This document shows positions 16,600-19,236 of a stretch of 19,420 bases of DNA, piece by piece. The notes below the pieces were generated by a model that saw nothing but the letters and a program-made list of their open reading frames with translations, was not told where the DNA came from and searched no databases. Source of the stretch: Candidatus Alkanophagales archaeon (lineage in GTDB: Archaea > Halobacteriota > Syntropharchaeia > Alkanophagales > B39-G2); the NCBI GenBank assembly GCA_003661185.1, contig QMVQ01000004.1:1-19420 (forward strand), given 5' to 3'. The first letter of the stretch is position 1, and every line of letters starts with the position of its first letter. A program made the position numbers and the translations under genes.

Positions 16600-16608
16600 T
16601 TAAAAAGT
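16600..16608 (-). promoter_or_regulatory. Candidate box A of ileS
   Basis: On the minus strand ACTTTTTAA lies about 37 bases before the ileS ATG, predicting a leader of about ten bases that includes a G-rich ribosome binding region. Moderate match only. Confidence 0.35.
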
Positions 16609-16759
16609 TTCTGGCATGCTTGCTGTGAAGCCGCTTGTTTAAAGCGTTCTGCCCTCACTGGTTCCTCGCCAATGCGTGCTCGGAAGCTTTAAGCGAGAAG
16701 TTTTCTATGCTGTTCATTAGGGAAGCGCCATGAGCACGACGGGGATGCACCGTTGCATT

Positions 16760-16783
16760 ATGTGGTGAGCCCAAGCATCACAT
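16760..16783. repeat. 8-bp hairpin beside the gene fragment
   Basis: ATGTGGTG, an eight-base loop and CATCACAT pair over eight positions with one G-T. It overlaps the stop codon of the minus-strand fragment. A smaller ATGCA/TGCAT hairpin lies just left of it. Function unknown; it may be part of a decayed element or of the fragment's 3' end. Confidence 0.4.
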
Positions 16784-16918
16784 CACCTCCAGCTTTATCT
16801 TGTAAATCCAGAGCGTGACGTTTTCGTAACTTGCGTTGTAGGGCTCGAAAAGGAGGCGTTCCCACTTTAAAGAGATGCCTGGCGCCGCTATAGGGGCATT
16901 TAGCACGTTACGACCGCC
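16778..16918 (-). pseudogene. Fragment of a surface-protein gene (C-terminal 46 codons)
   Basis: The minus strand is open from 16918 to a TGA at 16778 and reads like real protein: APGISLKWERLLF, then NASYENVTLWIYKIKLEV before the stop. It has two N-glycosylation sequons and the beta-strand rhythm of the exported proteins here. An in-frame TGA directly precedes it, and the only possible start is a GTG at 16906, without a ribosome binding site. I read it as the leftover end of a secreted-protein gene. The parent family is not recognised. Confidence 0.4.
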
Positions 16919-17042
16919 TCAGAATTTCACGGAGTGTAGCTGCGTCAAGAAAAATGTGAAACCACTGTCGAACACTACAAAAAAAGACATCAGTCCATAG
17001 TAGTAGTGCCAAGATACGTCTGCGAGCGAAATTTTTAACCAA

Positions 17043-17089
17043 TGCGGGCGAGAAGTCCCCTTCCGAAAGGGAGGGGATGAAAGTCCGCA
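17043..17089. repeat. Hairpin 1 (left copy), GAAA tetraloop
   Basis: TCCCCTTCC-GAAA-GGGAGGGGA forms nine pairs (one G-T) at 17056-17077. An outer stem TGCGGG/TCCGCA (17043-17048 with 17084-17089) encloses it with internal loops CGAGAAG and TGAAAG. It matches hairpin 2 except for a compensated base pair and a loop change. Confidence 0.65.
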
Positions 17090-17090
17090 A

Positions 17091-17101
17091 ATTATATATA
17101 T
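17091..17101 (+). promoter_or_regulatory. Strong box A before the structured RNA and subtilase
   Basis: ATTATATATAT is the best TATA element in the window. Its centre (17096) predicts transcription from about 17122, exactly where the structured RNA begins. No other TATA-like sequence is seen between there and the subtilase ATG, so it probably serves both the RNA and the subtilase mRNA. Confidence 0.6.
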
Positions 17102-17121
17102 GCTTTTGGTGACACATTTCT

Positions 17122-17235
17122 TCGTCGGGGACGCCTGGGACCGAGGTCTCTGTAAAGGGGTTCCGTGCTGGAGTCCCCCGACGCTATGAAGGCACGGTCG
17201 GAGAAGCTCCTTCCGTAAGGGAGGAGGAGTTCACC
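17122..17235 (+). ncRNA. Structured RNA with pseudoknot, omega RNA-like or subtilase 5' leader
   Basis: Three pairings are visible. Stem A: CGTCGGGGAC (17123-17132) with GTCCCCCGACG (17173-17183), ten pairs with one bulged C. Inside it a small hairpin GGGAC-CGAG-GTCTC occurs at 17138-17151. Stem B: CCGTGC (17163-17168) with GCACGG (17192-17197); its 5' arm is inside stem A and its 3' arm outside, so A and B make a pseudoknot. Stem C: the GNRA hairpin at 17207-17226. A pseudoknot followed by a 3' hairpin is the plan of TnpB omega RNAs, in which the guide follows the last hairpin. Transcription from the box A at 17091 would start at the first base pair. It may be a solo guide RNA, an element relic, or a regulatory leader of the subtilase gene. 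No protein partner is present. Confidence 0.5.
17207..17226. repeat. Hairpin 2 (right copy), GTAA tetraloop
   Basis: CTCCTTCC-GTAA-GGGAGGAG forms eight pairs (one G-T). Relative to hairpin 1 the second pair changes from C-G to T-A on both arms together, while the loop stays in the GNRA class. Confidence 0.65.
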
Positions 17236-17258
17236 AAGTTTCCAACCCGTCAACGTTT

Positions 17259-17268
17259 AGGAGGTGAT
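17259..17268 (+). promoter_or_regulatory. Perfect ribosome binding site of the subtilase
   Basis: AGGAGGTGAT matches the full archaeal 16S 3' tail complement and ends three bases before the ATG at 17272 (seven bases from GGAGG). It fixes the start and shows that the mRNA has a leader, as expected if transcription begins near 17122. Confidence 0.8.
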
Positions 17269-17271
17269 TCC

Positions 17272-19236
17272 ATGAAAAAGATTGCCGCAGTAATTCCTGT
17301 AGCTTTGGTATTTACACTCTTTGGCATCTGCGTCATCGCCGCTGCGAGCATTGGTCCTGAGGATTTGCCTGCTGAGCTCGGTAACATCGCAAAAACTGAG
17401 GGCGTAGCCGTGAAGATGGACGCTGCGGTGGCGAGTGTGGCGCTCGGCATCACGAAGACAGAAGCCGAAGCAAAGGCGTTTGCGCCCGACGCTCTCGACT
17501 TCGTGGACGGCAAGGCGAGAGTCGTCCTCGAGCTTGCAAACGAAGGCAAGAAAGCAGCACTCTCTCCAAAGCTTGAAAGGCTGGGCTGCGTCGTCGAGAC
17601 TTCCTACAAAAACCTCGTTCAGGCGCTCGTCCCGCCGGAGCGGCTTAAAGACGTGGCGGCTCTCGACGAGGTTCTTTACGTGCGGGCGCCGCTGAAGCCG
17701 TGCCTCTTCTCGGTCACGAGCGAAGGAGTTCCTATGATAAACGCTGACGACCTGCACGCTCTCGGCGTCACGGGCAGCGGCGTGAAGGTTGCGATTATAG
17801 ACTTGGGCTTCGAGGGCTACGCCACGAACCCCGAGCTCCCGGCTTCGTGCATTGCAGAGGTGAAGTCTTTCAGAGCGGATGGGGATATCGAAGCGGGTGA
17901 GGTTCACGGGACGGCGTGCGCCGAGATCATCCACGACGTGGCGCCCAGCGCCCAGCTTTACCTCTTTAATTTCGAGACCGACGTTGAATACGCGAACGCC
18001 GTCGCTTACGCCATTTCGAAGGGCATCGACGTCATTTCGGCGAGCTTCGGCTGGGTGAACGCCGGACCCTACGACGGCACCGGCCATATTTGCGACATCG
18101 CAAACGACGCACGTGCGCACGGCATCCTTTACGTGAACGCCGCCGGGAATCAAGCTGAGAAGCATTACGAAGGCACCTTCACAGACGCCGACAGCGACGG
18201 CTGGCACGAATTCGCAACGCCTGACGAAACCATAGATCTCGGCTACTTGCCCGCAGGGACGCCCGTGACGCTTTATCTCAGCTGGGACGACTGGCCCTAT
18301 TCAAATCAGGACTATGACCTCTATCTGTACGTGGAGACGCCTTACGGACTGGCAGTGGCAGCAAAATCTGCAAATCGCCAGACAGGAACGCAGCCGCCGA
18401 CCGAGGCGATAGAGGGCGTTGTGGTTACTGGTGGGCACTTCCACGTCGCCATTAAAAAATATCAGGCCACGAGGGACGTGCACTTCGAGCTTTACAGCTT
18501 CACGAACGACTTTCCGGAATACGACGTGCCTGAGAGCAGCCTCTGCATCCCGGCGGATGCCGAGGGCGTTCTGACCGTCGGTGCCGTTTATTGGCAGACT
18601 AGTGTTTTAGAAGACTTTAGCTCGAGAGGTCCGACGAACGATGGCAGAACGAAGCCCGACGTTGTTGCGCCGGACGGCGTCTCAACGTTCGCCTACGGCG
18701 CCGGAAACTTTTACGGAACATCGGCTGCGACGCCACACGTTGCGGGCGCTGCTGCTTTGCTGAAGAGCGCGTATCCAACGCTTACTGCCGACGACCTCCA
18801 GTATTATCTGGAGAACACCGCCATCGACCTTGGGGTGCCGGGCAAGGATAATAACTACGGAGCGGGCCTGATCGACGTCCTTGCGGCTTACGATGCCATC
18901 TCAGGACCGACAACTCCGACAGTGTCGATCTGGACGAACGAGCCGAGCTATACGGCGGGCGACGTCATGAACGTCGGACTTAGCGTCACGAACCCACTGG
19001 CAACACCTTACAACTGCCGGTTTGCGGTCTGGCTCCAGATGCCAACAGGCGGCATAGTCGTGGTCATTAACACACTTGTGACGTTGCCCTCAGGGCTTAA
19101 TTACAACAACCCCGCGCTCCTGAGTTTTACGCTGCCGCCTTTGCCTTCAGGAAGCTACACGTGGCACGCTGCCATCATCGACCCAGCAACAGGAAGCTTC
19201 GTGGCGCATGACACTGCCACTTGGACGTTCGCCTAA
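17272..19236 (+). CDS. Secreted subtilisin-like serine protease
   Basis: 654 residues. A signal peptide (1-25, MKKIAAVIPVALVFTLFG) leads into a propeptide-like region to about 145. The S8 catalytic domain has Asp177 (VAIIDLGFEG), His212 (EVHGTACAE), the oxyanion Asn293 (NAAGN) and Ser484 (YGTSAATPHVAGAAALL), so all key residues are present. Between Asn293 and VLTVGAVY (433-439) lies a 120-residue beta-rich insertion (about 300-415, PVTLYLSWDDWP, DYDLYLYVETP) resembling a pre-peptidase C-terminal or jelly-roll domain placed inside the protease. Residues 549-654 form a beta domain related to the end of the propeller protein encoded at 5491-7797. There is no membrane anchor. N-glycosylation sequons are absent, unlike in the propeller proteins. 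It may process surface proteins or digest external protein; the target is unknown. The gene follows a structured leader and a perfect ribosome binding site. Confidence 0.93.
   Translation: MKKIAAVIPVALVFTLFGICVIAAASIGPEDLPAELGNIAKTEGVAVKMDAAVASVALGITKTEAEAKAFAPDALDFVDGKARVVLELANEGKKAALSPKLERLGCVVETSYKNLVQALVPPERLKDVAALDEVLYVRAPLKPCLFSVTSEGVPMINADDLHALGVTGSGVKVAIIDLGFEGYATNPELPASCIAEVKSFRADGDIEAGEVHGTACAEIIHDVAPSAQLYLFNFETDVEYANAVAYAISKGIDVISASFGWVNAGPYDGTGHICDIANDARAHGILYVNAAGNQAEKHYEGTFTDADSDGWHEFATPDETIDLGYLPAGTPVTLYLSWDDWPYSNQDYDLYLYVETPYGLAVAAKSANRQTGTQPPTEAIEGVVVTGGHFHVAIKKYQATRDVHFELYSFTNDFPEYDVPESSLCIPADAEGVLTVGAVYWQTSVLEDFSSRGPTNDGRTKPDVVAPDGVSTFAYGAGNFYGTSAATPHVAGAAALLKSAYPTLTADDLQYYLENTAIDLGVPGKDNNYGAGLIDVLAAYDAISGPTTPTVSIWTNEPSYTAGDVMNVGLSVTNPLATPYNCRFAVWLQMPTGGIVVVINTLVTLPSGLNYNNPALLSFTLPPLPSGSYTWHAAIIDPATGSFVAHDTATWTFA

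Follow-up and report, generated by a model that had tools for sequence, protein, structure and literature searches.

A probable 195-bp mobile element without tnpB and its omega-RNA-like scaffold in Candidatus Alkanophagales

Upstream of a subtilase gene of a Candidatus Alkanophagales archaeon lies a short stretch of DNA whose transcript could fold into two crossing stems followed by a GNRA hairpin. What kind of RNA might this be, and to what larger unit does it belong? The window that we analysed (19,420 nucleotides) is the entire contig C4 of an assembly of 1.69 Mb in 259 contigs that is 86% complete, designated G000 below; G001 denotes a genome of the same genus. A preliminary description took the structure for a lone RNA starting near 17122, possibly an orphan guide RNA, with an order of elements like that of IS200/IS605 omega RNAs. 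Comparison with related loci places it instead in the right half of a 195-bp mobile element that begins at 17040, has a matching left end, and occurs in three copies in G000 (Table 1). Like an orphan guide it has no tnpB of its own, but it is not a lone RNA gene and its guide appears to be self-directed. The element is probably a palindrome-associated transposable element (PATE) of the IS200/IS605 family without tnpB that has kept its omega-RNA scaffold and is moved by TnpA; use of the RNA by TnpB is graded separately below.

Table 1. Coordinates of the element, its predicted RNA and its surroundings in the window
Feature	Positions	Strand	Basis or remark
Target / TAM-like site TTTAAC	17034..17039	+	TTAAC before 27/32 left ends, 1.4 expected
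Whole mobile element (PATE), 195 bp	17040..17234	+	Repeats at G000:C16 and C46; sharp right edge after GTTCAC; 74-84% to G001 copies
Left-end subterminal palindrome, GCGGGC...GTCCGC with inner CCCCTTCCGAAAGGGAGGGG	17044..17088	+	Sequence; 88% over 50 nt to the G000:C8 left end; same motif elsewhere
TATA-box-like sequence	17091..17098	+	7/8 to TTTATATA; centre 29.5 nt before G17124
Omega-RNA-like scaffold (5' start inferred)	17119..17234	+	Covariance model R1, 139.7 bits; the window copy is itself in the model
Stem A, 5' strand	17123..17132	+	10 pairs with 17173-17183, C17175 bulged; 100% of cells paired in 6 copies
Stem 1 hairpin CCU/AGG, loop GGGAC	17134..17146	+	Weakened: the CT found here in C16 and C46 is missing
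Pseudoknot 5' strand GGGAC	17137..17141	+	17138-17141 pair with 17229-17232; 100% of cells paired
Stem 2, 5' strand CUCU	17148..17151	+	Pairs with 17200-17203; CUCC/GGAG in three G001 copies
Stem 3 (stem B of the preliminary description), 5' strand	17163..17168	+	6 Watson-Crick pairs with 17192-17197
Stem A, 3' strand	17173..17183	+	100% of cells paired in 6 copies
Stem 3 (stem B), 3' strand	17192..17197	+	Pairs with 17163-17168
Stem 2, 3' strand GGAG	17200..17203	+	GAA 17203-17205 at -32..-30, ISDra2 numbering of PMC10097598
Right-end palindrome / stem 4	17207..17226	+	8 pairs (one G-U), 17207-17214 with 17219-17226; loop GUAA 17215-17218 at -20..-17
Terminal GUUCAC, pseudoknot 3' strand and right end	17229..17234	+	-6..-1; invariant in 6/6 copies
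Putative guide, 16 nt of the right flank	17235..17250	+	Placed by analogy with the ISDra2 rule (PMC8612924)
Neighbouring subtilase gene, outside the element	17272..19236	+	PF00082, E 2.1e-37; G001:C30 ortholog without element upstream

A dispersed element and its insertion sites

A BLASTN search with positions 17030-17260 against G000 recovered two further near-full copies, on contigs C16 (93% identity) and C46 (91%). The stretch common to these and the window copy runs from a T-rich TTTAAC to GTTCAC, and the flanks are apparently unrelated; the exception is C16, whose likeness to the window extends about 14 nt left of the target, which counts against a clean boundary since such a boundary would not predict it. 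G001 carries four further copies at 84, 82, 77 and 74% identity, one of them (C29) truncated on the right; those on C34 and C22 have variant sequences left of the element. One shortened copy is present in genome G018 (on C1). Some match to the element is found in 11 of the 99 genomes searched, the left-end part alone in six of these 11, and a plasmid collection gave no match. At 195 bp the element is too short for a transposase, and no open reading frame of at least 80 amino acids is present in its interior. As TTTAAC stands on the left side only and the right flanks are unrelated, there is no target duplication, and insertion took place 3' of a fixed short target. The near-terminal palindromes are related to IS605-type ends, as is typical of PATEs; together with the fixed target and the missing duplication they follow the usual plan of the IS200/IS605 family, namely palindromes near the ends and insertion 3' of a fixed short target without its duplication (PMC8612924, PMC7290912).

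In the window the element ends 37 nt before the start codon of the subtilase gene. The G001 ortholog of this gene (84% identity) lacks the element upstream, and the element is likewise absent from the G001 locus corresponding to C16; these are the two orthologous places that were identified, both without it. We looked for exact empty sites at four loci (the C16 locus, the subtilase leader, and the G000 counterparts of two G001 copies), none of which resolved into one. At the subtilase leader the likeness to G001 is not significant for the joined left flank (155 of 1000 shuffles), which had been cut one base too early, before the final C of the target, and is significant for the right flank (3 of 1000); for the two G001 copies no continuous empty site was found in G000. 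A second dispersed repeat, 82% identical to G000:C118:1148-1357, lies at 16661-16861 between the IleRS gene and the PATE.

The RNA scaffold, its promoter-like box and its putative guide

The stems A and B and the terminal GNRA hairpin of the preliminary description are all present where they had been placed, and B does cross A. These two stems had been taken for the pseudoknot; the conserved one is instead formed by the stem-1 loop GGGAC, which pairs with the terminal GUUC with one G-U pair. By analogy with known omega RNAs, stem B is the counterpart of stem 3, nested within stem 2, while stem A, which crosses stems 2 and 3, seems to be peculiar to this element family. With position 17234 taken as -1, the GUAA loop falls at -20..-17, the GAA at -32..-30 and the GUUC at -6..-3. 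In the omega RNA (reRNA) of ISDra2 a UUUA loop occupies -20..-17 and GAA -32..-30, and a terminal UUC pairs with the stem-1 loop (PMC10097598). The two RNAs thus have in common a scaffold of about 116 nt, a tetraloop, GAA and pseudoknot strand at the same positions, and a guide taken from the right flank (PMC10097598, PMC8612924). They differ in that the ISDra2 RNA, as described in these sources, comes from the tnpB 3' end plus the right end of an element with the target TTGAT, whereas the element here has no tnpB, an extra 10-bp stem A and the target TTTAAC. This positional match, along with ends common to tnpB elements, bears out the assignment of the right end to the IS200/IS605 omega-RNA type. 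The Rfam comparison that had been suggested gave no match at gathering over the window for any model including HEARO, and at E<=10 over 16600-17300 only sR60 appeared, at a chance-level E of 2.8.

The folding energy is unremarkable (z -1.07, with 30 of 200 shuffles as stable), and the case for the structure therefore rests on comparison. In the six copies from two genomes that were aligned, nine of the ten pairs of stem A never vary, and stem B has one broken pair in four copies (at one position in three of them, at another in one), with 88.9% of its cells paired. For the full structure 95.6% of cells are paired in register, against 42.4-53.4% when the strands are slid by 1-3 columns. No measure of covariation exceeds shuffles within the six copies, whereas between families both strands of stems 1 and 2 change. 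The loop GGGAC or GGAAC is closed by GGGC/GCCC in the tnpB element of G000:C8, by GGGCA/UGCCC in Methanolliviera and by CCGUA/UAUGG in genome G068, and GGGAC as stem-1 loop recurs in tnpB-linked right ends whose stems differ from those of the element. Similarly stem 2 reads CUCU or CUCC/GGAG in the element and CCUG/CAGG in six of 13 comparison right ends, including that of C8. Two tnpB-less elements end in GUUGAC (G000:C122, locus L126; G001:C22:20900-23500, locus L133), and in these GUCAAC replaces GUGAAC (by eye), as would be expected if the omega-RNA pseudoknot had undergone compensatory change.

A descriptor made of stem 1, the pseudoknot and stem 2 was scored against 300 shuffles. For nine of the 13 comparison right ends at most 13 of the 300 shuffles were as good, while four failed (32, 77, 88 and 241 of 300); the combined p of 8e-9 is optimistic, as two pairs are close relatives and tnpB linkage is established for only part of the 13. 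The seven element copies gave 2 (G001:C34), 5, 14, 23, 45, 138 (window) and 167 (G018:C1) of 300, so that the window copy and G018:C1 do no better than shuffles, and the best placement for C16, C46 and G001:C22 partly differs from the proposed structure. The window copy is among the weakest because it is without the two stem-1 bases that C16 and C46 have; it may be partly decayed. The latter two have lost six bases of the right-end hairpin, and the loop at -20..-17 is seen in the window copy. Identity between G000 and G001 copies is 84% in the RNA core, 74% in the right-end hairpin, 71% in the left end (a bin that starts one base early in this count; the target bin, shifted likewise, was left out) and 61% in the spacer. 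Of the 79 RNA-core columns 19 vary, as against 24 of the 34 spacer columns (p 5e-6).

Ahead of the scaffold lies a box resembling the archaeal TATA consensus, TTTATATA. Octamers scoring at least 6 against it follow 26 of 34 left ends, with 5.7 expected; the attached p-value is optimistic, the left ends being related. The centre of the box lies 25.5-30.5 nt before GTCGGGG in five of seven element copies; in the two with a shorter spacer the best octamer is 10.5 nt away, which is not a promoter distance. Archaeal transcription is expected to start about 26 nt downstream of a TATA box, which here would be near 17120-17124, at the foot of the scaffold. From this arrangement it seems that the omega RNA was joined to the left-end (tnpB) promoter when the core between them was deleted. 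A scan for bacterial sigma-70 promoters was also run, a method unsuited to archaea.

A guide would begin at 17235, directly after the right end, just as the preliminary description had proposed. The three copies in G000 would have three different guides, each set by its insertion site. No exact second occurrence of the window guide's target (TTWAAC plus 9 nt) exists elsewhere in the 86%-complete genome, and allowing up to three mismatches gives 72 sites against 50 for a reversed control, a mild excess. The guide looks self-directed, being the element's own flank behind the target TTTAAC, and the lack of an exact second target fits a guide aimed at the site that the element itself has vacated, a role already proposed in the case of ISDra2.

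Ties to tnpB-bearing elements

The left end of the element is 88% identical over 50 nt to that of a tnpB element on G000:C8, which likewise has the target TTTAAC, a right end closing in AGTTCAC and the GGGAC loop. The C8 element differs in carrying a tnpB, albeit a broken one whose frame stops at L009:4098 with the C-terminal part in another frame, in its stem 1 and stem 2 sequences, and in that no counterpart of stem A is seen in its right end (by eye). Of 32 distinct left ends among the loci examined, 27 have TTAAC in the 36 nt that precede the left palindrome, where shuffles predict 1.4, and in 25 of these 27 it lies 11-12 nt before GAAGTCCC. Searched in public archaeal contigs, the 24 bases at the core of the left palindrome recur exactly in 15 stretches, part of which are not left ends; Hadesarchaea, Heimdallarchaeota, Methanolliviera, Archaeoglobales and Ethanoperedens are among the sources. 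As judged from these sequences, the ends match those of tnpB-bearing IS200/IS605 elements of the IS1341 type.

A covariance model, R1, built from the six element copies only, gave 126 matches in 28 of the 99 genomes at E<=1, eight of which are element copies. We examined 34 of the remaining 118 (all six from G000, 11 of the 15 from G001, and the top match of each of 17 other genomes) for linkage to TnpB with eight TnpB query pieces from G000. In 20 of the 34 (weakly in L120, E 5e-4) a TnpB coding sequence stops 4-131 nt short of the right end, and none was found before the other 14, two of which have less than 300 nt of contig upstream. Since the R1 signal comes largely from the right-end hairpin, this linkage shows the family and not the cognate TnpB; across the 99 genomes R1 detected no tnpB whose scaffold matches closely. 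Several of the 14 are by eye other tnpB-less elements with omega-type right ends: one on G001:C29 with a C8-type scaffold, those on G000:C106, G001:C5 and G001:C2 with a C88-type scaffold, those on G001:C7 and C3, and those on G000:C122 and G001:C22 that end in GTTGAC. In G000 and G001 together about four kinds of such right ends keep omega-type features (by eye).

An R1 match in G054 was set aside as chance-like, for it sits in coding sequence. A further R1 match is in G052. In the same genome (G052:C13, loci L139 and L140) a 90-nt stretch close to the stem-3 part marks the 5' margin of a block of 1.66 kb that occurs in two copies 98% identical, with a likely FtsZ-like gene downstream (by eye) and no right-end hairpin.

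As the preliminary description had noted, the window has neither tnpB nor tnpA; whole-genome searches with PF07282, PF01385 and PF01797 gave no match on C4, and the element, having no tnpB within it, does not form the 3' end of such a gene. The expectation that copies would be found next to tnpB holds in part: none of the three G000 copies ends a tnpB, while similar ends stand behind tnpB in the 20 cases above. TnpB matches are absent from C4 and C16, while C46 has one on the opposite strand; judged by this orientation it belongs to a separate element. The copy there (L008) lies about 600 bp from this TnpB C-terminal domain, which is at the contig start.

Elsewhere in G000 there are 25 TnpB-domain matches, 18 of them above the cut-off and many near contig ends. 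The TnpB on C88 keeps an open frame with C-terminal Cys motifs, and several C8-type TnpBs in these genomes are broken or without the zinc ribbon. Those of L132 (G001:C20), L028 (G000:C69) and L009 (G000:C8) have a C-terminal part without the Cys4 zinc ribbon; GTSEGLS..DDPLRD occurs in L132 and L028, the G001:C20 frame is uninterrupted over 384 amino acids, and that of C69 starts at the contig edge. Matches to Y1 transposases in G000 are on C93 (a 162-amino-acid open frame at a contig edge) and on C24, where a second piece reads through a stop.

Possible roles and known relatives

The repeated element, the ends common to it and tnpB elements, the target TTTAAC and the omega-RNA layout can be read directly from the DNA, and on them the probable assignment to a tnpB-less PATE is based. 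Its history might be as follows. A core deletion presumably removed tnpB and left both ends and the omega RNA, and would thereby have brought the left-end (tnpB) promoter to about 26-30 nt upstream of the scaffold, creating a small guide-RNA transcription unit. TnpA encoded elsewhere would move the element by its palindromes. Least certain are the last steps, in which TnpB encoded elsewhere would load the RNA, with the element's own right flank as guide, and, once the element has left, would cut the vacant TTTAAC site, whereupon repair would restore the element by copying. Such use in trans is plausible by analogy with ISDra2, where TnpB has been proposed to keep the transposon in place after excision (PMC8612924); that TnpB does cut the emptied site here and so restores the element is a tentative proposal.

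A guide RNA served by TnpB has a competitor that is at least as likely. The element may quite possibly be a decaying PATE that TnpA once moved by its palindromes, with the omega-RNA sequence as an idle leftover of the tnpB 3' end. The lesions in G000 copies (in stem 1 of the window copy, in the hairpin of C16 and C46), the truncated G001:C29 and shortened G018:C1, the failure to find a cognate TnpB among the 99 genomes, and the description of PATEs as degenerate IS605 elements (PMC3119063) all point this way. However, TnpA should need the ends only, and yet the inner RNA core is better kept than either the spacer or the left end; in addition the other tnpB-less right ends, of about four kinds in two genomes, keep their omega-type features (by eye). 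Regulation of host genes by an orphan guide RNA that serves TnpB, active or nuclease-dead, in trans would accord with the missing tnpB and with the many TnpB-domain matches elsewhere, some from proteins with a shortened C-terminus, but three different guides set by insertion sites, no exact second target and a mild excess of mismatched ones make it improbable. Finally, a role as a riboswitch-like or attenuator leader acting in cis on the subtilase gene is suggested by the position 37 nt before the start codon, but is very improbable for a dispersed repeat with unrelated flanks that the G001 ortholog lacks and that has no Rfam match at gathering.

The assignment to a tnpB-less PATE with a retained scaffold can be set against several known systems. 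Haloarchaeal omega RNAs are sense-overlapping transcripts of tnpB genes, whereas here there is no tnpB. Their pseudoknot joins the second hairpin loop and a terminal motif, a feature that the present RNA shares along with the right-end hairpin (PMC12558985); a search of that source gave no passage on 'orphan', 'MITE' or 'in trans'. In Haloquadratum walsbyi the PATEs are short, have no transposase or terminal inverted repeats, and bear near-terminal IS605-type palindromes; some derive from core deletion, and HqIRS71 resembles an extended terminal segment of IS605-type transposons (PMC3119063). Our element shares their shortness, lack of a transposase and near-terminal palindromes, but has a mapped scaffold and a promoter-like box ahead of it, while the accessible text of PMC3119063 does not treat PATEs as guide-RNA carriers. 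A PATE-like sequence of about 271 nt in Halanaerobium hydrogeniformans combines a left-end hairpin, a tnpB tail and a full right end (PMC7290912). The account in PMC7290912 gives one such sequence, compared with a family in two species here, of 195 bp and with no open reading frame of at least 80 amino acids. The kind of element is thus already known, from Haloquadratum (PMC3119063) and, with a whole right end, from Halanaerobium (PMC7290912).

As far as the literature search shows, what appears new is the mapped scaffold, kept as a family across two species, together with the additional stem A and a likely joining of promoter and omega RNA; in its partial coverage we found no statement of PATEs with promoter-driven omega RNAs. 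Standalone omega RNAs exist for IscB, and a 2023 Nature paper on TnpB/IscB and selfish spread reportedly treats related elements in Geobacillus. Possibly the element represents an archaeal tnpB-less class in which promoter/omega-RNA fusion by core deletion yields self-contained guide-RNA genes that exploit foreign TnpA for moving and foreign TnpB for copying back. Within the same reading we would propose, with similar reserve, that several kinds with different scaffolds coexist in the genus, including one that suggests a GUUGAC/GUCAAC pseudoknot and not GUUCAC/GUGAAC. If gene-less elements do carry their own guide RNA and promoter, the retention service of TnpB would be obtainable in trans. 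This could help to explain why PATEs exceed IS605-type transposons in Haloquadratum (177 to 99 and 194 to 118; PMC3119063). Natural guide RNAs with varying stems and a constant layout would also be useful for learning which scaffolds a TnpB accepts.

Two further arrangements of such ends were seen. At L070:1470-1534 and L085:5405-5470 an ends-only element has a single hairpin that leads straight into GTTCAC, as if the palindromes had recombined. In L076 (Hadesarchaea, JAGGTB010000052.1) two left ends stand head to head on one common GTTAAC site, and for one of them a right end follows about 224 nt on.
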